64,000 nt of DNA from Kineosporia succinea. GTDB lineage: Bacteria > Actinomycetota > Actinomycetes > Actinomycetales > Kineosporiaceae. The DNA is taken from contig NZ_JAUSQZ010000001.1 in the NCBI RefSeq assembly GCF_030811555.1, forward strand, positions 6,321,241-6,385,240, read 5' to 3'. Shown piece after piece: positions 2,023 to 16,746 of the stretch (its first letter is position 1; the number at the start of each line of letters is the position of its first letter). The position numbers and the translations under genes are program-made. A model generated the notes under the pieces. That model saw only the letters and a program-made list of their open reading frames with translations. It ran no database searches and was not told where the DNA came from.

Positions 2023-2829
2023 TCAGGGGCTGGACCAGCGGTAGAGGTTCTTGGGACGCCCCGCCGTGCCGTAGCGCTGACTCTGTGAGACCAGGTGCCG
2101 GTCGGTGAGTTCCTCGAGGTAGTGCCGGGCCGTGACCCGGGAGATGCCCAGGGCCTGGGCGACGTCGTTCGCGGAGACCGGCACCGTGGAGGTGCGCAGG
2201 TGTGCGGCGACGCGGTCGAGCGTGCGGCGGGCCGGGACCTTGCCGGCGCGGGGGATCGTGCCGTTCTCGGGGCCACCCGCGAGCAGGCCGTCCGCCGACC
2301 AGGACACCGGGGGAGGGGCCTGCGGTCGCAGCAGCGCGAGCGCGGAGTCGATGTCGCGCTGGCTGACCGGGCCGGATCCGGCGGACGTCTGGCGGCGGAA
2401 GGCGGCGTAGCGGCGCAGGTGCTGCTGCAGGTCCTGGCTGTGCAGGGGCTTGAGCAGGTAGTGCACGACCCCGTACGACGCGGCCCGGCGCACCAGCCGC
2501 AGGTCTCGCTCGGCGGTGATGACGATGAAGTCGACGGCGCAGTCGCGGGCGCGCAGGGTGCGGCACAGCTCGAGACCGCAGGCGTCGGGCAGGTTCACGT
2601 CGAGCAGGATCAGCTCGGGGGTGAGGTGCCCACCGGGGCCTGGATGTTCGGCGTGGTCGGGCGGCTCGGTCCGGCGCAGGAGCTCGGCGCCGGTGTTGAC
2701 GATGCCGGTCACGGTGAAACCCGGCGTGCGGCTGACGTACTCGGCGTGCCGGGTGGCGACGACCGGGTCGGCGTCGGCGATCAGGGTGCTGATGCGCCGG
2801 TCGGTCCGGCGGGCGGAGTGGTCAGGCAT
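2023..2829 (-). CDS. Response regulator with receiver and C-terminal HTH (CitB/DcuR-like)
   Basis: The 268-aa protein has an N-terminal receiver domain: ISTLIADADP supplies the acidic pocket, LILLDVNLPD the phospho-acceptor Asp, and LLKPL the conserved Lys. A linker and a C-terminal winged HTH follow (VSANDVAQALGISRVTARHYLEEL). This arrangement is typical of CitB/DpiA/DcuR-type regulators of two-component systems. No sensor kinase gene is in the window, so it is an orphan here. The ATG at 2829 is preferred because upstream in-frame sequence is low-quality and lacks domain homology. It is divergent from the globin/NOS-like operon across a 453-base spacer, so control of that operon is plausible but unproven. 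Confidence 0.85.
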   Translation of the reverse strand: MPDHSARRTDRRISTLIADADPVVATRHAEYVSRTPGFTVTGIVNTGAELLRRTEPPDHAEHPGPGGHLTPELILLDVNLPDACGLELCRTLRARDCAVDFIVITAERDLRLVRRAASYGVVHYLLKPLHSQDLQQHLRRYAAFRRQTSAGSGPVSQRDIDSALALLRPQAPPPVSWSADGLLAGGPENGTIPRAGKVPARRTLDRVAAHLRTSTVPVSANDVAQALGISRVTARHYLEELTDRHLVSQSQRYGTAGRPKNLYRWSSP

Positions 2830-3282
2830 GGGCGTCCGGATCGGACCGTCGTCACTCTCCTCCACGCCGGCGGTGCGCCCGTCACCGGGCGTGTACGTAG
2901 AGCGTGATTCTAGTAACAGTGCGCGGCCGGGATCAATCCGGGGTCGGCACCGTTTCCCGAGGCACCCATATATCCGTTTCCCTTGCATTCCCGGAGGCGG
3001 CGCATGTCTGTCAATAGTTTTCGCGGTTCTTCTCATTCTGTGGACCGGTATTCGCCGAGGTGACGCAGAGTTGAGCTTCATCGACGACTGTTTGTGATGT
3101 CTGGCGTGGCGTTTCAGCAGGGCTGACGTGCAATGCGTGCCTATCTCGTAACTTTCAGTGATCACTTTCGTAGGTTGTGTCGAGTTTGCATCTTTCCGTG
3201 TTTCCTCGGTAGAACGGTCCTCGACGCAACCTCATCCGGTGGCCCTGTTCGTCGGCCCGACCGAATTTTTAGGGAGAGCTGG
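2830..3282. promoter_or_regulatory. Divergent intergenic control region
   Basis: This 453-base stretch has no convincing gene and is clearly richer in A/T than its flanks (for example around 2960-3270). It separates the response-regulator start from the globin start and must carry both promoters. A TTGACA-like hexamer is readable on the minus strand near 3003-3008. An AGGGAGAG ribosome-binding site lies just upstream of the globin ATG. I could not define a confident operator by eye. Confidence 0.45.
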
Positions 3283-6282
3283 ATGTTTCGCGAGCCGCGA
3301 CGATTGGAGGAGCTTCCTCCTTTCGACCCGCGGACGATCGCGGTCGTGCGCAAGAGCTGTGCTGCCCTCCCGCCCGACCACATCGAACTGACGCGGGAGT
3401 TCTACCACCAGCTCTTCATCATGGCGCCGCACGCGCGCGCGATGTTCCCGGAAGACATGGACGCGCAGAACGAGCGCCTCCTCAAAGCCATCCTCATGAC
3501 GGTCGAGAACCTCGACAAGCCGGAGATGGTCGAGGCGCACCTGCGGCGCTGGGGTGCCCACCACCGTCGCAAGCACTCCGTCACCAACGACCTGTACCCC
3601 TATGTGGCGCACTCGCTGGTGCGGGCCCTGCGGGAGCTGAACGGTGGTGACCTCGAGACCACCGTCGCCTCGTGCTGGATGGCGGTCTACGAGTGGATGG
3701 CCGCCGTGATGATCGCCGGCGCCGACGACGCGGAGAACGCCGAGCAGCAGGCCGGTACCCGGGAGGGTGCGGTCGTGCGTCCGTACTACCAGGACGACGA
3801 GGCGGCCGACCAGGCCGGTCAGTACTACGGCGGGCACGGCGCGGCTTCCTCCGTCAGCCCCGAGACCGTTCAGCAGCCCGCGATCCGCGACGTGCGCGGT
3901 GCGTCCACGCGCCAGGACTACCCGGAGCCCGCGCAGCAGGCCTACCCCGAGGCCGGACGGCAGTCCGAGGTCGCGCGGTACAGCGGGACGGGTGGCCCGG
4001 CTGCCCCGGTTCGCGCGGCCGGCGCCGTGCGTCAGTCCGCGCCGCAGGTGGGGCAGTCCTACGGTGAGACCGGATCCGCGGCCGCCGTTTCGCCGTACGC
4101 CGAGGTCGAGCCCTACGGCGCCCAGAACCCGGCCCCCTCGAACGACGCCTGGTCGGCGCCGGAACCGTACGACGCGCAGGCCGCCGGTTACGCCGACCCG
4201 CACGACCACACTCAGGGCTCCTCCGCCGCGGCGGGCCACGAGCGCGACCAGGGCTGGTTCGCGGGGGAGAACTCCGCGGGGCCGTCCACGGGACAGTTCG
4301 CCGGTTCCGCGCCGAACCCGGCCCCGGCGTCGGGCAGCTGGTTCGACCAGCGGCCGGGTGACGAGTCGCCGTCCGGGCCGTCGGGCGCGCAGGTTGCCGG
4401 CCCGGGAACCGGGTCCGGTCAGGACTGGTTCGCCGGGCAGGGGGACTCCTCGGCGGAGGCCTACGAGCAGCCGGGCCCGTACGAGCAGCCGGGCCAGTAC
4501 GAGGCGCAGGGTCAGTACGGGCAGTCGGCGCAGCATGATGCGCCGGGGCCGTACGGACAGCCCGAGGCGCAGGGGCAGTACCCGCAGCCGGGGCAACACG
4601 ACGCCGCGGACCAGTACGAGCAGCCCGGGCAGTACGAGCAGTCCGGTCAGCCGGGCCCGTACGAGCAGTCGGGCCGGTTCGGGCAGTCGTCGGCGGTGGA
4701 TCGCTCGCAGCCGCTCCCGCGCGGTCAGTACCGCGGCGGTCAGTCGTCGGCGGGGGCGATCGGGGCCGGTCCGGGTGCCGGTCACGGTGGCCCCGGCACT
4801 CAGGGGGGCGGTGGCGGGTACGGCGGCCAGGCCGGCCTGAACGTCGGTGGTCTGGGCGGCGGAGCCGGTCTGGGCGGGGACGGGCTGGGCGGCGGAAGTC
4901 GTCTCGGTGGTCTTGGGATGTCCGGCGGGGTGACGGAGGCGGCGGGTCCGCAGTTCGCGCGTCCGCCGCAGCGGCAGACCGGTGAGCAGCGGCAGGTGAC
5001 GCCCGAGCAGCAGTACATCGGCGAGACCGCGGCCATCGACCAGTCGAGCATCGCCGCGCACTTCGAGGAGCAGGGCGGCTACGACGGCTCCTCCTACGGT
5101 GCGCCTCAGCGGCAGGACGCCGCGCAGCCCGGGTACGACGCCCAGGGCTGGAGCACCGGTCAGTTCACCGCGCCGGAGCAGGGCTACGACGCCCCCGGCG
5201 ACGAGACGGACCAGCGCTGGACCTCCGGCCAGGTCCACGACGACCGGACCGACGCCGAGGGTCAGGGCTGGGGCACCGGCACCACGGGTCAGTTCGCCCA
5301 GCCCGGCCAGGGGTACGAGCAGGGGTGGAACGCGGGCGACACCGCCCAGCCCTACGACGACCAGGACGCCCAGCCCGCAACGGGTTACGACGAGCAGGAC
5401 GCCCAGCAGTGGGGCGCCGCGCAGCCGGATCAGCCCGAGCGGGCCGCCGCTCCCGAACAGCGCTGGATCGCCACCGGCCGCACCCGCGACGACTACGCGG
5501 ACGCCGCCGACCGCCGCTGGGGCACCACCGGCCAGTTCACCCAGCCCGGCCAGTTCACTCAGCCCGGTCAGGGCTACGAGACCGGCCAGCAGTGGATCAC
5601 CGGCACCCGAAACAGCAGCAGCCAGAACATCGGCACCCGAAACCCCGGCGCCGGCAACGGTGGAGCCGGTAACGGCGGTGCCACCGGCCCGGTTCGGCAG
5701 CCGGGCCTCACCCGCGGTGCGCAGGACGGCGCCCGTGGCCAGGAAAGCCGGGGCCAGGAAAGCCGGGGCCGTGAGCCCGGTCTGACCGACTCCGGCGAAC
5801 AGCGCTGGCACGTCGGCAACACCGGGCAGTTCGCCCTCCCGGCCCGCGCCGCCGACCCGGCCGGTCAGCCGGGTCAGGCCGGTCAGCCGGGGCAGACGAG
5901 CCGGCCCGGTCAGACCCGCCCGTCCGGCCGGGAACGAGCCGACAGCATTCGAGCCGACAGCATCCGAGCTGACAACCTGAGGGCCGACAACCTCAGGGCC
6001 GACAGCGCCAGGGGTGACGGCCCGCGGCAGCCCGGCCCGGCGAGCGCCGCCCAGCCCGGTGACCCGGAGCGTCCCTACCGCCCCGAGACCGCTGGTCGTC
6101 CGCGCGTGAACAGCATCAACGACAGCGGCAGCAGCGCGGTGAGCCCCGGCTCCTCGTCCGAGGGCCACCGTTACATCGATGTCACCCCGTACGACGAGGA
6201 CCGCACCGACGGTCCGGTGCGGCCCGACGACACGCAGCCGCAGCCGGGACAGCCGGCGGAGCACTGGCAGGGCACTGCATGA
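3283..6282 (+). CDS. Globin with very long Gln/Gly/Pro-rich low-complexity tail
   Basis: Residues ~14-145 of the 999-aa protein align with bacterial haemoglobin/flavohaemoglobin globin domains. Tyr41 fits B10, Phe55 CD1, Gln62 E7 and His94 (in WGAHH) the proximal F8 ligand, as in NO-dioxygenating flavohaemoglobins. There is no FAD/NAD reductase domain. The remaining ~850 residues are low-complexity: YEQPGQ-type repeats, a Gly-rich block near residues 490-550, five TGQF motifs usually next to a Trp, and ADSIR/ADNLR pentapeptides. The ATG at 3283 follows an AGGGAGAG site and begins the globin; an open frame extends upstream without homology. The stop overlaps the ATG of the NOS-like gene (ATGA), so the two are translationally coupled. 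NO or O2 chemistry is inferred. Confidence 0.85.
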   Translation: MFREPRRLEELPPFDPRTIAVVRKSCAALPPDHIELTREFYHQLFIMAPHARAMFPEDMDAQNERLLKAILMTVENLDKPEMVEAHLRRWGAHHRRKHSVTNDLYPYVAHSLVRALRELNGGDLETTVASCWMAVYEWMAAVMIAGADDAENAEQQAGTREGAVVRPYYQDDEAADQAGQYYGGHGAASSVSPETVQQPAIRDVRGASTRQDYPEPAQQAYPEAGRQSEVARYSGTGGPAAPVRAAGAVRQSAPQVGQSYGETGSAAAVSPYAEVEPYGAQNPAPSNDAWSAPEPYDAQAAGYADPHDHTQGSSAAAGHERDQGWFAGENSAGPSTGQFAGSAPNPAPASGSWFDQRPGDESPSGPSGAQVAGPGTGSGQDWFAGQGDSSAEAYEQPGPYEQPGQYEAQGQYGQSAQHDAPGPYGQPEAQGQYPQPGQHDAADQYEQPGQYEQSGQPGPYEQSGRFGQSSAVDRSQPLPRGQYRGGQSSAGAIGAGPGAGHGGPGTQGGGGGYGGQAGLNVGGLGGGAGLGGDGLGGGSRLGGLGMSGGVTEAAGPQFARPPQRQTGEQRQVTPEQQYIGETAAIDQSSIAAHFEEQGGYDGSSYGAPQRQDAAQPGYDAQGWSTGQFTAPEQGYDAPGDETDQRWTSGQVHDDRTDAEGQGWGTGTTGQFAQPGQGYEQGWNAGDTAQPYDDQDAQPATGYDEQDAQQWGAAQPDQPERAAAPEQRWIATGRTRDDYADAADRRWGTTGQFTQPGQFTQPGQGYETGQQWITGTRNSSSQNIGTRNPGAGNGGAGNGGATGPVRQPGLTRGAQDGARGQESRGQESRGREPGLTDSGEQRWHVGNTGQFALPARAADPAGQPGQAGQPGQTSRPGQTRPSGRERADSIRADSIRADNLRADNLRADSARGDGPRQPGPASAAQPGDPERPYRPETAGRPRVNSINDSGSSAVSPGSSSEGHRYIDVTPYDEDRTDGPVRPDDTQPQPGQPAEHWQGTA
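5938..6012 (+). repeat. 15-nt tandem repeat encoding ADxxR pentapeptides
   Basis: Five 15-base units in the globin-tail gene encode ADSIR, ADSIR, ADNLR, ADNLR and ADSAR. The period and the A(D/N)xxx pattern resemble a very short pentapeptide-repeat segment, but five units are too few for a full beta-helix. Synonymous differences between units argue for protein-level selection or an old duplication. Confidence 0.7.
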
Positions 6283-7976
6283 CGCAACAGAACGTGCACA
6301 CCGATGCCGGATTCGGCGTCCCCTCGTTCGAGACCGATGCGCAGGCCTTCGCGACCGGTCGCGAGGCCTACGCAGCCCGTGACGGTTACCGGGGCAGTGA
6401 AACGTACTCGGACGCCGACAGTTTCGAGGCCTCGGCCCCGACCGTCGCGGTGGTGACGGGCGCCGCCCGGGCGACCACCACGTCCACCATGAGCGACCGC
6501 ACGACGGGAGGCGGGCACCCCGTCTTCCGCCCGACCACCGCGTTCCAGCACGACACCGAGCGCCCCGGGATCGACCCCACGCGGGTCGCCGCGGACTGGC
6601 AGCTGATGTACGAGTGGCTCGAGCGTGACGCGGAGATGGCCTCGGTGTGCGGCTTCTCGGCCGAGGACCTGAGCTACTCCGCGCGCAGCGCCCGCGTCAA
6701 CGAGCTGATGCTGGAAGTCGGCCCGGGCCGGACGTTCACCGTGCTGCCGAACGAGATGCAGTTCTGGGTGCGGTATTCCTGGATCAATTCCGACCGCTGC
6801 TCCGGGCGCCAGCACGCGCTGCAGCAGGCCGTGATCCAGTACCGGCCCGAGGTGCGTGGCGCCGTCGACATGCTCCGCGCCGCGGTCGACCACGCGAACA
6901 TGGCCATGAACGCGCCGGTTCCGCCGCAGACCGTGATCACGGTGCTGGGCGGTCCGGTGGCTCCCGGTGAGCTGGGCCCGATGTTCGTCACCGAGCAGAT
7001 GCTGCGCGCGGCCGGCTACCACCAGGCCGAGGGCGGATGGAGCGGCGACGGCGGCTATCTCGACGTCACCGACTGGGTGCGCCAGCAGGGCGGCGGGCAC
7101 CTGATCCAGTCGATGCCCGGCTACCGGCCCGGTTCGTTCGACGTGCTGCCGATGCTCGCGATGGGCGAGGACGGCGAGCTGGTGATGGCCAGGGTCCCGA
7201 ACGCCGAGCGCTACCTCATCGACATCCCCTGGCCGCGTCACCCCGAGACCAACACCACCGCGGGCGACGACTCCGGGTACGGCGAGCCGTTCGCGTGCTG
7301 GCCGGCGATCCCGCTGCAGACGAACTTCGACATCGACATCGCCGGGCAGCGCTACTGCACGATCTTCAACGGCTGGTACGTCGACGAGGAGCTGGCCACC
7401 AACTTCCTCGACCCGCGCCGCTACGACTGGGCCGACCGCATCGGTGAGGCCATCCACGGGCCGGTCGATGCGCAGATGCTCTCGCGCACCGACAAGTTCG
7501 ACGAGTACCGGATGGCGCAGATCGAGATCGCGACGCTGCGCGCGATCCGGGCGGGGTTCAAGTCCAACCGGATGAAGATAAACAACCTCTCGGCCAGCCA
7601 GAGCGGTTTCGCGAAGTTCTGCCAGCGCCACCTGGCCACGCACGGCGAGATGCCGCCGAACGACACCGGCTGGACGTCCAACCGGATCGGCTCGCGGTTC
7701 CGTTTCCCCAGCCACCCGGTGCCGCACAAGGCCCAGGAGCGCGGCGCGGTGCTGGTCAAGCACTGGCTGACGGTCAAGTCGCTGCGCCCGAACGTGCCCG
7801 TGCACATCGTGGACCTCGAGGCGCTGGAACCCTCGCGCCCGGGCCGGCACGCCGCGGTCACGATGGCCGAGCCGATCACCCAGCCCAACCGTTTCGTGAC
7901 GTCGGACTGGTCCGACGAGGCGGCCCCGGAACGCGGCGGCTGCCCGGTGAACCACGGCGCGCGCCGCACCGTCTGA
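6279..7976 (+). CDS. Divergent nitric oxide synthase oxygenase-like haem protein
   Basis: From about residue 130 the 565-aa protein can be aligned with NOS oxygenase domains. W168-x-N-x-x-R-C174-x-G-R matches the haem-thiolate motif, including the Trp six residues before the Cys that stacks on haem. PQTVITV, then MLRAAGY, GDGGYLDVTDW and FDVLPML follow in NOS order. FNGWYVDEE (363-371) matches the FNGWY..E substrate segment, and Glu371 sits where NOS binds the arginine guanidinium. It differs from typical ~360-390-aa bacterial NOS by a ~100-residue disordered N-terminus, by lacking a recognisable C-terminal SGS..PVFHQE pterin segment, and by ending with GGCPVNH. No reductase is nearby. The ATG overlaps the globin stop. 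NO synthesis is inferred; another haem-thiolate oxygenation is possible. Confidence 0.72.
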   Translation: MTQQNVHTDAGFGVPSFETDAQAFATGREAYAARDGYRGSETYSDADSFEASAPTVAVVTGAARATTTSTMSDRTTGGGHPVFRPTTAFQHDTERPGIDPTRVAADWQLMYEWLERDAEMASVCGFSAEDLSYSARSARVNELMLEVGPGRTFTVLPNEMQFWVRYSWINSDRCSGRQHALQQAVIQYRPEVRGAVDMLRAAVDHANMAMNAPVPPQTVITVLGGPVAPGELGPMFVTEQMLRAAGYHQAEGGWSGDGGYLDVTDWVRQQGGGHLIQSMPGYRPGSFDVLPMLAMGEDGELVMARVPNAERYLIDIPWPRHPETNTTAGDDSGYGEPFACWPAIPLQTNFDIDIAGQRYCTIFNGWYVDEELATNFLDPRRYDWADRIGEAIHGPVDAQMLSRTDKFDEYRMAQIEIATLRAIRAGFKSNRMKINNLSASQSGFAKFCQRHLATHGEMPPNDTGWTSNRIGSRFRFPSHPVPHKAQERGAVLVKHWLTVKSLRPNVPVHIVDLEALEPSRPGRHAAVTMAEPITQPNRFVTSDWSDEAAPERGGCPVNHGARRTV

Positions 7977-8069
7977 CGGGCGGGTGACGGGCGGAGTGTT
8001 CATCCACACGTAGCCCGCGCCGTGCCCGTTTCGTGCCCGGCGCGGGTGCCCGCTGTGTGATCATTCCCT

Positions 8070-9620
8070 GTGAGCTTCGCACGGGTTCAGGCCGTCCGCA
8101 GAAACACTTTCGCGGGCGGCGGGGCCCTGCTCGCCGTGGCCTTCGTGCTGCTGGTGCTGCCGGCGGCGCTGGGCCCCTCCTCGGCCACCCCGCCGCTGGG
8201 CCCGCGCGGTTCCTGGCCGGCCTGGGACCTCGGCCTGAACCCGCCCGACGGGCTGGTGATCGTGGCGCTGGCCGGGGGTTACCTGCTGGCCGCCGCCGGG
8301 TTGTGGCTGGGCCTGCGCTCGGGCCGGGCGCCCACCCCGAAGCGCGTCGCCCAGTTGTCGGTGCTGATGACCGTGCTGTTCGTGCTGGTGGCGCCGTTCG
8401 GCTCGGCCGACCACCTCAGTTACGTGGCGTACGGCCGGATCAAGGCCCTGGGCGGCGACCCGTACCTGGTCCCGCCCGACGCCTGGCCCGGTGCGGACGC
8501 CGTGATCGGCTCGGTCGAGGCGCCGTGGGAGGGCACGACGAGCGTCTACGGCCCGGTCGCGACCGCCGTCTTCGACCTGGTGGCGCGTCTGGGTGGCGGC
8601 GACCTGCGGCTGACGGTGTGGCTGTGGCAGCTCGTGGTCGGGGCGGCGTTCCTGCTGACCGGCTGGCTGCTGTACCGCCTCGCACCGCCGGAGCTGAAGT
8701 CGCGGGTGAGCCTGCTCTGGCTGCTGAACCCCGCGCTGGCCGCCGTTCTCGTGGGCGGTGCGCACCTCGACACCCTCGCCGCGGCCGGTGGGGTGGCCGG
8801 TGCGGCGCTGCTGATCCTGGGGCGCGGCCCGGTGGTCTGGGTGCTGGCCGGCGCCGCGTTCGCGGTCGGCGCCGGCACCAAGATGCCCTACCTGGCGATG
8901 GCGGCCGCGGCCTGGTGGGCGATCCGCTCGCGCCCGGTGCGCGAGGTCGCCCTGGTCACGGGCTCGGCCGTGGTCGGCGGGCTGCTGGTGCTGGTGCCCG
9001 GTCATCTGTGGTCGGGCCCGCACACCTACGACCAGACGCAGGCGGCGAGTCACTACGTGTCGATCGCGAGCCCCTGGCGCTCGGTCGTCAGCCTGCTCGA
9101 GGCCCTGATCGGTTCCACGGCCCGTGACCTGCTGCCGTTCCTGTTCGCCGCGCTGGCGCTGGTGATCGTCGCGGCCGCGAGCCGGCTGTTCCGGAGCGCG
9201 CCGGTGAACGAGAGCCAGAGCTTCGGCCGGGCCCTGCTGGTGCTGAGCCTGGCCTATCCGCTCGCGGCGCCGTACGTGCTGCCCTGGTACGACGCCCCGC
9301 TGTGGGTCGCGCTGGTGCTGGCCGACGTCCCCGTGGTGCTGCTGGGGCTCCTCGTCACCCGGCTCGCGGGGCTGGCGATCTCCTACGTGCCGGGCAGGGC
9401 GGACGTGCCGGGCTCGTTGCCGCTCGACGTGATGCTGGGCGTGCGCCACGTGGCCGGCCCGTTGCTGGTGCTCGGGGTGCTGGCCTGGCTGTTCAGGGCA
9501 TCGCGGCGGGCCTCGGCGCAGCGCACGAGCACGAACGCGAGCGCGACCACGGTGACGCCACGCACGACCATGGCGGCGTTGCCCATGAAACCGGGCGTGC
9601 CCCAGAGCCACGACCACTGA
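8070..9620 (+). CDS. MptB-like polyprenol-phosphomannose-dependent mannosyltransferase (GT-C)
   Basis: This 516-aa polytopic protein has about 11-12 hydrophobic segments. Its loop DHLSYVAYGRIKALGGDPYLVPP resembles the D..xY..YGR....G.DPY motif of actinobacterial GT-C mannosyltransferases of the MptA/MptB group, which lengthen cell-envelope glycans from polyprenyl-phosphomannose on the outer membrane face. The GTG at 8070 gives a short basic N-terminus before the first membrane segment. The hydrophilic last ~45 residues run into the convergent glycosyltransferase gene, a 238-base tail-to-tail overlap. Sugar and acceptor are inferred from family resemblance only. Confidence 0.7.
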   Translation: MSFARVQAVRRNTFAGGGALLAVAFVLLVLPAALGPSSATPPLGPRGSWPAWDLGLNPPDGLVIVALAGGYLLAAAGLWLGLRSGRAPTPKRVAQLSVLMTVLFVLVAPFGSADHLSYVAYGRIKALGGDPYLVPPDAWPGADAVIGSVEAPWEGTTSVYGPVATAVFDLVARLGGGDLRLTVWLWQLVVGAAFLLTGWLLYRLAPPELKSRVSLLWLLNPALAAVLVGGAHLDTLAAAGGVAGAALLILGRGPVVWVLAGAAFAVGAGTKMPYLAMAAAAWWAIRSRPVREVALVTGSAVVGGLLVLVPGHLWSGPHTYDQTQAASHYVSIASPWRSVVSLLEALIGSTARDLLPFLFAALALVIVAAASRLFRSAPVNESQSFGRALLVLSLAYPLAAPYVLPWYDAPLWVALVLADVPVVLLGLLVTRLAGLAISYVPGRADVPGSLPLDVMLGVRHVAGPLLVLGVLAWLFRASRRASAQRTSTNASATTVTPRTTMAALPMKPGVPQSHDH

Positions 9621-14065: not shown

Positions 14066-16294
14066 TCAGACGGCCACGGCCTTCTTCAGGTCGAACCGGT
14101 CGGCGTCCATGACCTTGACCCACGCGGCCACGAAGTCGTTGACGAACTTCGTCTTCGCGTCCTCGCTGGCGTAGACCTCGGCCAGGGCGCGCAGCACCGA
14201 GTTGGAGCCGAAGATCAGGTCGACCGCGGTGGCGGTGTACCTGACCTCGTCGGTGGCCAGGTCCCGGATCTCGTAGAGGTGCTCGCCCTCGGCGGCGGCC
14301 TTCCACTTCGTGCCGGGCGAGAGCAGGTTGACGAAGAAGTCGTTCGTCAGCTGACCCGGCTTGTCGGTGAGCACACCGTGGGCGGAACCGCCGACGTTGT
14401 TGCCGAGCACCCGCAGGCCACCGATGAGAACGGTGGTCTCCGGCGCGGTCAGGTTGAGCATGTACGCGCGGTCGACGAGAAGCACCTCGGGCTGGGTCTT
14501 CTCACCCTCGCGCAGGAACTGGCGGAAGCCGTCGGCCCGCGGCTCGAGCACCGCGAACGACTCCACGTCGGTGTCCTCCTGCGTGGCGTCGGTGCGACCG
14601 GCGTGGAACGGGACGGTCACCTCGACCCCGGCGTCCTTCGCGGCCTTCTCGACGGCGGCCGAACCGGCCAGCACGATCAGGTCGGCGAGGGAGATCGTGG
14701 TCCCGGACTCGCTGCGGATGCCCTCGAGGACACCGAGCACCTTGGAGAGCTGCTCGGGCTGGTTGACCTCCCAGTTCTTCTGCGGCTCGAGCGCGATGCG
14801 GGCGCCGTTCGCGCCACCGCGCATGTCGGTGGAACGGTAGGTCGCGGCGCTCGACCAGGCGGTCTGCACCAGCTCGGACACGGACAGGCCGGATTCGAGC
14901 ACCTTGGCCTTGAGCGTGGCCACGTCGGCGTCGGAGACCGCGGAGGTCGCGGCCGGAACCGGGTCCTGCCACAGCTGCGGCTCGGCCACCCACGGGCCGA
15001 GGAAGCGGCTGACCGGTCCCATGTCACGGTGCAGGAGCTTGTACCAGGCCTTGGCGAAGGCGAGGCGGAACTCCTCCGGGTTCTCGAGGAAACGCTTCGA
15101 GATCGCGCCGTAGACCGGGTCGAAGCGCAGCGACAGGTCGGTCGTGAGCATCGTCGGGCGGTACTTCTTCGACGCGTCGTAGGCGTCGGGGATGATCTCC
15201 TCGTCGGTCTTGGCGACGTAGTGCTTGCCGCCGCCCGGGCCGGTCGTCAGCTCCCACTCGTAGCCGAAGAGGATCTCGAAGAAGCGGTTGCTCCACTCGG
15301 TCGGCCGGTCGGTCCACGTGACCTCGATGCCCGAGGTGATGGTGTCCTTGCCCTTGCCCGAGCCGTGGTTCGAGAGCCAGCCCAGACCCTGCGCCTCGAT
15401 GCCCTCGCCCTCCGGCTCCGGGCCGACGTCACCCGTGTGGGCGCCGTGCGTCTTGCCGAAGGTGTGGCCACCGGCGATGAGGGCGACGGTCTCCTCGTCG
15501 TTCATCGCCATCCGGGCGAAGGTCTCGCGGATGAAGTGCGCGGCCTGGACGAAGTCGGCGTTGCCCTTGGGACCCTCGGGGTTGACGTAGATGAGACCCA
15601 TCTCCGTCGCCCCGACGCCCGGGAGCATGTCCTTCTCCGAGGTGTACCGGGTGTCGGCCAGCCAGGTGTCCTCCGGGCCCCAGAAGATCTCCTCCGGCTC
15701 CCACACGTCGGGACGGCCGAAGCCGAAGCCGAACGTCTTGAAGCCCATCGACTCCAGGGCCACGTTCCCGGCGAGCACGAGCAGGTCGGCCCAGGAGACC
15801 TTCTGGCCGTACTTCTGCTTGACCGGCCACAGCAGGCGGCGGGCCTTGTCCAGGTTGGCGTTGTCGGGCCAGCTGTTCAGCGGGGCGAAACGCTGCCCGC
15901 CGTCACCGGCGCCACCGCGGCCGTCCTCGATGCGGTAGGTGCCGGCGGCGTGCCAGCTCATGCGGATCATCAGGCCGCCGTAGTGCCCGAAGTCGGCCGG
16001 CCACCAGTCCTGCGAGGTGGTGAGGACCTCGGTGATGTCGGCCTTCAGCGCCTCGACGTCGAGCTTGGCGAACTCGGCGGCGTAGTCGAAGTCGTCACCC
16101 AGCGGGTTGCCCTTGGACGAGTGCGCGTGCAGCACCGTCAGGTCGAGCTGGTTCGGCCACCAGTCGCGGTTGCCCCGCGGGTTGTCGACCTTGCTGGTCG
16201 GCGGCTTGATCGCCGGGTTCTCGCTCTCGCTGCCGTTCGCGGTCGCCGAGTCGTGCGCGACCGGGCAGCCGCCCGCGTTCTGGGTGTCGCTCAT
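14066..16294 (-). CDS. katG: Catalase-peroxidase KatG
   Basis: The 742-aa bifunctional haem enzyme removes H2O2 by catalase and peroxidase activity. All key residues are present: distal Arg111-Trp114-His115 (in [11 protein letters not shown]), proximal His277 (in [10 protein letters not shown]), and the Trp114-Tyr236-Met262 set that forms the catalase-specific cross-link. Length is full for the family and includes the non-catalytic C-terminal repeat domain. Of two in-frame ATGs, 16294 is preferred because GGAAGG is six bases upstream; the other (16300) abuts it. The stop of furA is 23 bases upstream, giving the classical actinobacterial furA-katG operon, presumably induced by peroxide through FurA. 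The N-terminus carries GGCPVAH. Confidence 0.97.
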
Positions 16295-16317
16295 GTGCAT
16301 CCTTCCGGGCTGGCCAA

Positions 16318-16746
16318 TCAATGACGTGTGCTCGCGGCCGAGCACTGCGGGCAGGTGCCCCAGTACACGACCTCCGCCTCGTCGACCACGAAGCCGTGAT
16401 CGTCCGAAGCGGTAAGACAGGGGGTGTGGCCCACGGCGCACTCCACGTCGGCGATCGCTCCACAGGATCGGCACACGACGTGGTGATGGTTGTCGCCCAC
16501 CCGGGTCTCGTACCGCGCGTTCGCCCCGGTCGGCTGGATCTTGCGGATCAGCCGGGCGTCGGTCAGGGCGCGCAGGACGTCGTAGACCGCCTGGTGGGAG
16601 ACGGTGGGCAGTTCGGCCCGCACCAGGCTGATCACCGTGTCGGTGTCGACGTGCGGGTGCTCGTGCAGGGCGGTGAGAACCGCCAGGCGGGGCCGCGTCA
16701 CGCGCAGCGAGGCCGAGCGCAGCTGGGCCTCGAAGTCGGACGTCAT
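16318..16746 (-). CDS. furA: FurA, Fur-family peroxide-responsive repressor
   Basis: The 142-aa Fur-family protein has an N-terminal winged helix (residues ~10-85, with [20 protein letters not shown] as the recognition region) and a C-terminal metal domain containing [10 protein letters not shown] second Cys pair (CPQC) near the end completes a structural zinc site. Genes directly upstream of katG in actinobacteria encode FurA, which represses its own operon and is inactivated by oxidation (established knowledge). A palindromic AT-rich element just upstream of the ATG is the likely operator. Confidence 0.93.

Follow-up and report, generated by a model that had tools for sequence, protein, structure and literature searches.

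The window analyzed, a stretch of 64,000 nucleotides (nt) from Kineosporia succinea (contig NZ_JAUSQZ010000001.1, positions 6,321,241 to 6,385,240 of the forward strand), contains a pair of overlapping genes, the first encoding a globin with a long low-complexity tail, and the second encoding a divergent protein similar to the oxygenase of nitric oxide synthase (NOS). The pair sits in an 8.07-Mb single-contig genome of the genus Kineosporia, which comprises soil bacteria. Both open reading frames (ORFs) of the original prediction, made by a model from the letters of the window, were recovered, at 3283–6282 (999 amino acids, aa) and 6279–7976 (565 aa). The features of the pair, in window coordinates, are as follows:

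3283–6282, forward strand: globin gene, 999 aa; globin domain (about residues 15–150), then an 843-residue Q/G/A/P/Y-rich low-complexity tail (ORF, Pfam, PDB search)
3325–3732, forward strand: globin domain (Pfam, PDB search, alignment of six orthologues)
3751–6279, forward strand: low-complexity tail, probably disordered judging by composition (composition, orthologue comparison)
6279–6282, forward strand: ATGA overlap of the globin stop and the NOS-like start, 4 nt (sequence)
6279–7976, forward strand: divergent NOS-oxygenase-like gene, 565 aa (ORF, Pfam, PDB search, hhalign)
6675–7673, forward strand: segment alignable to NOS oxygenases, residues 133–465 (Pfam, PDB search, hhalign)
6798–6800, forward strand: codon of Cys174, the predicted haem-thiolate ligand (alignment)
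7317–7319, forward strand: codon of Gln347, at the Val/Ile gate position of known NOS (alignment; role of the gate residue in release of nitric oxide, NO, according to PMC6104048)
7389–7391, forward strand: codon of the substrate-type Glu371 (alignment)

Conservation of the pair and the tailed globin

The pair was found in all six Kineosporia genomes sampled, including the window genome, K. rhizophila, K. mesophila and K. babensis, and in none of the seven other genomes among the 13 of the family that were searched. In K. mesophila it is split over two contigs, one carrying the globin gene and the part encoding the first 125 NOS-like residues, and the other carrying the remainder; these were not joined. 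The tight coupling proposed for the window extends to the whole genus: the genes overlap by 4 nt in five of the six genomes, and in K. babensis an earlier globin stop leaves an 8-nt gap before the NOS-like gene. The two genes are separate ORFs in all six genomes, not a single chain of the SyNOS type, and no reductase domain was detected by Pfam in either ORF of the window pair. The Shine–Dalgarno-like sequence AGGG falls inside the codons that specify the terminal tripeptide WQG, whose conservation may therefore reflect the ribosome site. The ratio of nonsynonymous to synonymous changes (pN/pS) within the genus was 0.09–0.45 for the NOS core and 0–0.43 for the globin (15 of 15 pairs each), indicating that both are under purifying selection. 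The pair is a core two-gene operon of Kineosporia.

The globin ORF matched Pfam PF00042 with 39.5 bits (residues 39–143); its best PDB chain, at 1.6e-10, was 3wfw (‘Hemoglobin-like flavoprotein fused to Roadblock/LC7 domain’). Residues Tyr41, Phe55, Gln62 and His94, which we take to be B10, CD1, E7 and F8 by comparison with flavohaemoglobins, are invariant in all six orthologues, as in the globin pocket of flavohaemoglobin (Hmp), and the NO-dioxygenase-like pocket with Tyr B10 and Gln E7 that had been proposed is thus present throughout. The FAD and NAD reductase domains of Hmp were not found in the globin ORF, in which Pfam detected only the Globin domain and which reached 57.1 of 432 bits with NF009805. 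By these sequence comparisons, the globin is of the single-domain, flavohaemoglobin-like kind.

The low-complexity tail, about which the original prediction said nothing, makes up about 84% of the first gene. The tail of the window protein is 843 aa long, contains no Cys or Lys and has 8.8% of residues VILMFWC; across the six species the tails comprise 334–843 aa, with 12–23% Gln, 4–11% Tyr, 6–9% VILMFWC, no Cys and 0–2 Lys. Length and sequence vary between species, while the composition stays similar, and the C-terminus TQP(Q/R)PGxPA is kept in all six. The tail resembles prion-like disordered regions, which suggests that it may be disordered and may undergo phase separation. With its 334–843 Tyr/Gln/Gly-rich residues, the globin is a candidate scaffold of a bacterial haem-protein condensate.

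NOS-like protein and the function of the operon

The NOS-like ORF matched Pfam PF02898 (NO_synthase) with 96.8 bits over residues 133–459, the curated cut-off being 22.7 bits, and the five Kineosporia orthologues matched with 93.3–103.7 bits. In the PDB, phmmer with the single protein retrieved NOS3 at 4.2e-17; the profile of six orthologues had SyNOS (9q05) as its best match, at 3.8e-19, and among the 60 of 81 matches listed, all were named NOS except 4imx_A (‘subunit A’). Alignment of the family with 20 canonical NOS by hhalign gave a probability of 99.8 and an E-value of 2.5e-29. The NOS-oxygenase homology proposed for the window was thereby upheld, with the fold of the PF02898 superfamily; a confident match to a non-NOS family, named beforehand as the contrary outcome, did not appear among the matches listed, although families outside these lists are not excluded. 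By homology, the protein truly belongs to the NOS-oxygenase superfamily.

Within this superfamily it is remote. In a tree built from 49 NOS domains, all six Kineosporia sequences form one clade (100/100) outside the 43 others, among them an archaeal and a cyanobacterial NOS but no animal or SyNOS row; because of midpoint rooting and a long stem, the exact attachment of the clade is unsure. Searches of 58 relatives gave matches only in the six Kineosporia genomes. Among 296 genomes of the class, 40 matched, namely the own genome and 39 others with at most 82.8 bits and 28–34% identity; among 396 genomes of the phylum, six matched, the five others with at most 88.4 bits (at most three candidates were scored in the phylum matches listed). 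When 396 phylum genomes were searched with PF02898, eight had a match, and the seven besides the own genome scored 214–515 bits. Outside Kineosporia, every match listed to the divergent type was below 89 bits, and those placed in the tree fall outside the Kineosporia clade; in the plasmid collection, 14 records matched, all with less than 60% identity.

The haem-Cys, TVITV, FDVLPML and FNGWY motifs were present as had been claimed. Cys174 lies in WINSDRCSGR, which fits WxNxx[RK]CxGR; TVITV occupies residues 218–222, FDVLPML residues 287–293, and FNGWYVDEE contains Glu371. All are invariant in the six orthologues, with the exception of position 289 (Leu in one) and position 293 (Leu/Ile/Val), so that Cys174 and Glu371, whose conservation had been proposed as a check, are kept in every one. 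The six orthologues were compared with 32 canonical NOS, in which 132 columns are at least 90% conserved; 49 of these are identical and invariant in the orthologues. Residues kept as in canonical NOS are Trp168, Cys174, Gln240, Arg243, Trp366, Tyr367, Glu371, Asn375, Arg381, Tyr382 and Trp465. The last lines up in all six with the position of Trp457 of inducible NOS (iNOS), presumably the pterin-stacking Trp, the alignment being weak beyond it. The substrate set of bona fide NOS (Glu371, Trp366, Tyr367, Gln240 and Arg243) is invariant in all six; the guanidine and carboxylate roles of Glu371, Gln240 and Arg243 are assumed from NOS structures. For the Trp and Tyr residues, site roles in NOS are given in PMC6104048.

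Guanidine oxidation by the NOS-like protein together with removal or buffering of NO by the globin is the favoured explanation of the operon as a whole, with an estimated probability of about 0.4. The second protein, with a NOS-oxygenase fold by homology, would bind haem through a Cys ligand and guanidine through a Glu, as the invariant residues suggest. Its substrate would most likely still be L-arginine or another compound of the guanidino type, oxidized to a nitrogen oxide with electrons borrowed from general cellular reductases, as for other bacterial NOS. Gln347, together with a reduced pterin site, would retune its haem pocket. The globin, produced by coupled translation, would most likely serve as NO dioxygenase or NO/O2 buffer, to which the Tyr B10/Gln E7 pocket points, and the Tyr/Gln/Gly-rich tail would most likely concentrate proteins locally. 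A bolder reading, in which a novel NOS-fold branch with Gln-gated haem and no canonical pterin site joins the tailed globin in a condensate making and consuming, or sensing, NO, is quite doubtful.

A number of observations weigh against guanidine oxidation with NO removal. Of the 132 columns conserved in canonical NOS, 83 lack such identity and invariance across the orthologues. Two features of bona fide NOS are missing from all six: the gate Val/Ile is replaced by Gln347, and the pterin-site Arg, which we take to be the equivalent of iNOS Arg375, is lost (Thr374 or a gap, by alignment). A conserved Trp is replaced by Thr463 and a conserved DHH by NL(S/T), likewise in all six. The stem of the Kineosporia clade is extremely long, 6.5 changes per site. 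AlphaFold gave a predicted local distance difference test (pLDDT) score of 33.9 with four Kineosporia rows only, and only 50.5 with an alignment that included three canonical NOS from IMG/VR; with such low values, no pocket geometry is claimed. On the side of the globin, only two of the six Kineosporia genomes gave a second globin match as large as a flavohaemoglobin, so that no dedicated globin reductase was identified, though no search aimed at reductases was made. As the gate and the pterin Arg are both changed, the protein should not be filed as nitric oxide synthase; the set of residues for substrate recognition is intact, and handling of O2 and NO as well as pterin binding are probably altered. 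With the substrate pocket fixed and these two sites altered, the genus represents a natural test of the essential features of NOS.

A haem-thiolate oxygenase acting on another substrate, such as a guanidino compound or peptidyl arginine, with a globin that supplies O2 or removes by-products, is unlikely. It would agree with a substrate Glu kept in changed surroundings, with an insert of about 10 residues near 323–332 and a C-terminal region that also differs from canonical NOS, and with the presence of a canonical NOS in the own genome (the only one of the six Kineosporia genomes to encode it), which means that in this genome the NOS-like protein does not simply replace it. However, no biosynthetic genes were found to be conserved beside the pair: each downstream window gene tested is absent from some of the six loci, which were cut at 12–19 kb.

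Relation to other NOS–globin systems

SyNOS of Synechococcus PCC 7335 fuses a globin to full NOS, according to PMC6104048, and its globin is an NO dioxygenase, according to PMC12922734. As in SyNOS, which gave the best PDB match to the Kineosporia profile, the globin comes first and is coupled to the NOS oxygenase that follows. SyNOS is a single fusion protein that has its own reductase and an Ile gate, whereas Kineosporia has two proteins, no reductase domain, a Gln gate and a long low-complexity tail. Bacterial NOS is normally an oxygenase alone (PMC6104048 and PMC12922734); the missing reductase, presented in the original prediction as a special feature, is therefore not distinctive. With the canonical stand-alone NOS of the own genome (L001 1378–2565; 395 aa), the protein shares the fold family, the haem Cys motif, the substrate Glu and the lack of a fused reductase; it differs in sequence (26% identity), in the match score (97.7 versus 468 bits), in the gate and pterin Arg, and in its extra N- and C-terminal parts.

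Separate NOS and globin genes side by side, as in Kineosporia, were found in further systems (NZ_CP107937.1, G147, G312, L118 and L119); in these, a canonical NOS is combined with a complete flavohaemoglobin, comprising globin, FAD and NAD domains. The two genes lie on the same strand and abut or overlap, except in G312. On the Micromonospora zamorensis plasmid NZ_CP107937.1 (L166 3848–6270), NOS oxygenase is directly followed by the flavohaemoglobin gene; a gene of the tryptophan dioxygenase family was observed further downstream. IMG/VR yielded three NOS loci, each with a globin-containing gene next to NOS. The flavohaemoglobin ORF 1565–2893 of L118 overlaps NOS 2890–4020, the two genes of L119 abut, and the end of NOS in L117 is overlapped by an ORF that matches a globin in part (Pfam 41.3 bits). 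The three contigs, of 125–165 kb, carry a viral label in IMG/VR. Two further pattern scans of IMG/VR revealed no new NOS, and of 28 loci only L172, on the contig of L117, encodes one. Among sampled genomes, a globin lies within about 5 kb of NOS in two of 42 (G147, NOS then flavohaemoglobin, 2 bases apart; G312, divergent genes); the count covers 42 of the 43 NOS genomes from the class and phylum searches, the own genome excluded and G063 (on a 3.3-kb contig) left out, with some flanks cut by contig ends and both positives picked beforehand from coordinates. Taken together, the genomes, the IMG/VR loci and the plasmid indicate that NOS–globin association is recurrent, but not the rule.

An ordinary bacterial NOS–flavohaemoglobin pair made odd-looking by fast evolution is very improbable. 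The layout resembles that of L118, where a full flavohaemoglobin gene also overlaps NOS by 4 nt, and in the globin tree the flavohaemoglobins of L118 and L119 are the next neighbours of the group formed by the Kineosporia and single-domain globins, with support of only 88/79. Yet the NOS core evolves slowly within the genus (pN/pS at most 0.45) though its stem is long, and the globin, lacking FAD and NAD domains, forms a sister group to 11 single-domain globins, all from the actinobacterial family f35 (100/99). NOS-adjacent globins as a group are scattered in this tree. An origin of the Kineosporia globin in a NOS-linked flavohaemoglobin is not supported by this grouping.

The f35 globins (L104–L114) have only 7–89 aa after the globin domain, unlike those of Kineosporia; no FAD domain was found in the one scanned with Pfam, and the others are too short for it. 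NOS was not found within the 15-kb stretches around any of the 11. In six of these 11 loci, a pyridoxamine-phosphate-oxidase-like (PNPOx-like) gene adjoins the globin (one identified by Pfam; five by tblastn, with 72–75% identity to it), and represents a possible reductase partner of these globins.

In the genomes searched, the divergent NOS-like pair was found only in Kineosporia; pairing as such is not unique, and ‘new module’ proved too strong a term, given the SyNOS fusion and the separate pairs elsewhere. NOS–globin coupling is not new; the novelty lies in the combination of a divergent NOS lineage and a single-domain globin that has a prion-like tail. This is a further form of coupling, besides the fused protein and NOS with flavohaemoglobin, and the existence of several forms suggests that pairing of NO formation with NO removal was favoured more than once. 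Among the open-licence titles and abstract openings listed, no description of a Kineosporia NOS or of a separate NOS–globin operon was found.

Two other plasmid NOS genes have different surroundings. On a 21-kb Jannaschia plasmid (L163 3914–5188), NOS overlaps a radical S-adenosylmethionine (SAM) gene and has a long branch in the NOS tree; on a Nostoc plasmid (L161 2801–8444), NOS is located among short-chain dehydrogenase/reductase (SDR), desaturase and aminotransferase genes, resembling a biosynthetic cluster.

Response regulator and flanking sequences

Two further features lie upstream of the pair:

2023–2829, reverse strand: DpiA-like response regulator, divergently transcribed; start codon approximate (Pfam, locus comparison)
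3166–3246, forward strand: upstream conserved block; borders approximate (six-species comparison)

The response regulator, whose window copy contains the Pfam domains Response_reg and HTH_64 (a DpiA-like helix-turn-helix), adjoins the pair in divergent orientation in all six Kineosporia genomes and is the only one of the window genes tested to do so. In the favoured explanation, guanidine oxidation with NO removal, it would probably control the operon. Its constant presence, as well as the Gln347 gate and loss of the pterin Arg in every orthologue, would also suit a NOS-like protein that is no longer a synthase and acts as a haem-thiolate gas sensor or NO-binding partner, sensing NO or O2 with the globin and signalling, for example, to the response regulator. 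Such a role is rather unlikely, since a pure sensor would not need the guanidine/carboxylate pocket, all of which (Gln240, Arg243, Trp366, Tyr367 and Glu371) is invariant.

Neither pair protein had a match in PADLOC, and neither the NOS-like protein nor the globin domain had one in PHROGs, both at an E-value of 0.01. A GCPVxH motif near the C-terminus of the NOS-like protein is invariant across orthologues. A peroxidase gene at 14066–16474 on the reverse strand (Pfam PF00141, 223 bits), which we take to be KatG, encodes the similar GGCPVAH near its start. The shared motif was rejected as a functional link: its DNA pattern had seven matches in the genome versus five in a reversed control and is not clearly enriched. 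Nothing on the CPV motif was found in the open-licence literature.

Rfam gave no match at gathering level on 2800–8200, the block 3166–3246 included, and two weaker matches only. The block, which spans about 80 bases ahead of the globin gene, is strongly conserved in the six species and is probably the promoter/operator region of the operon.

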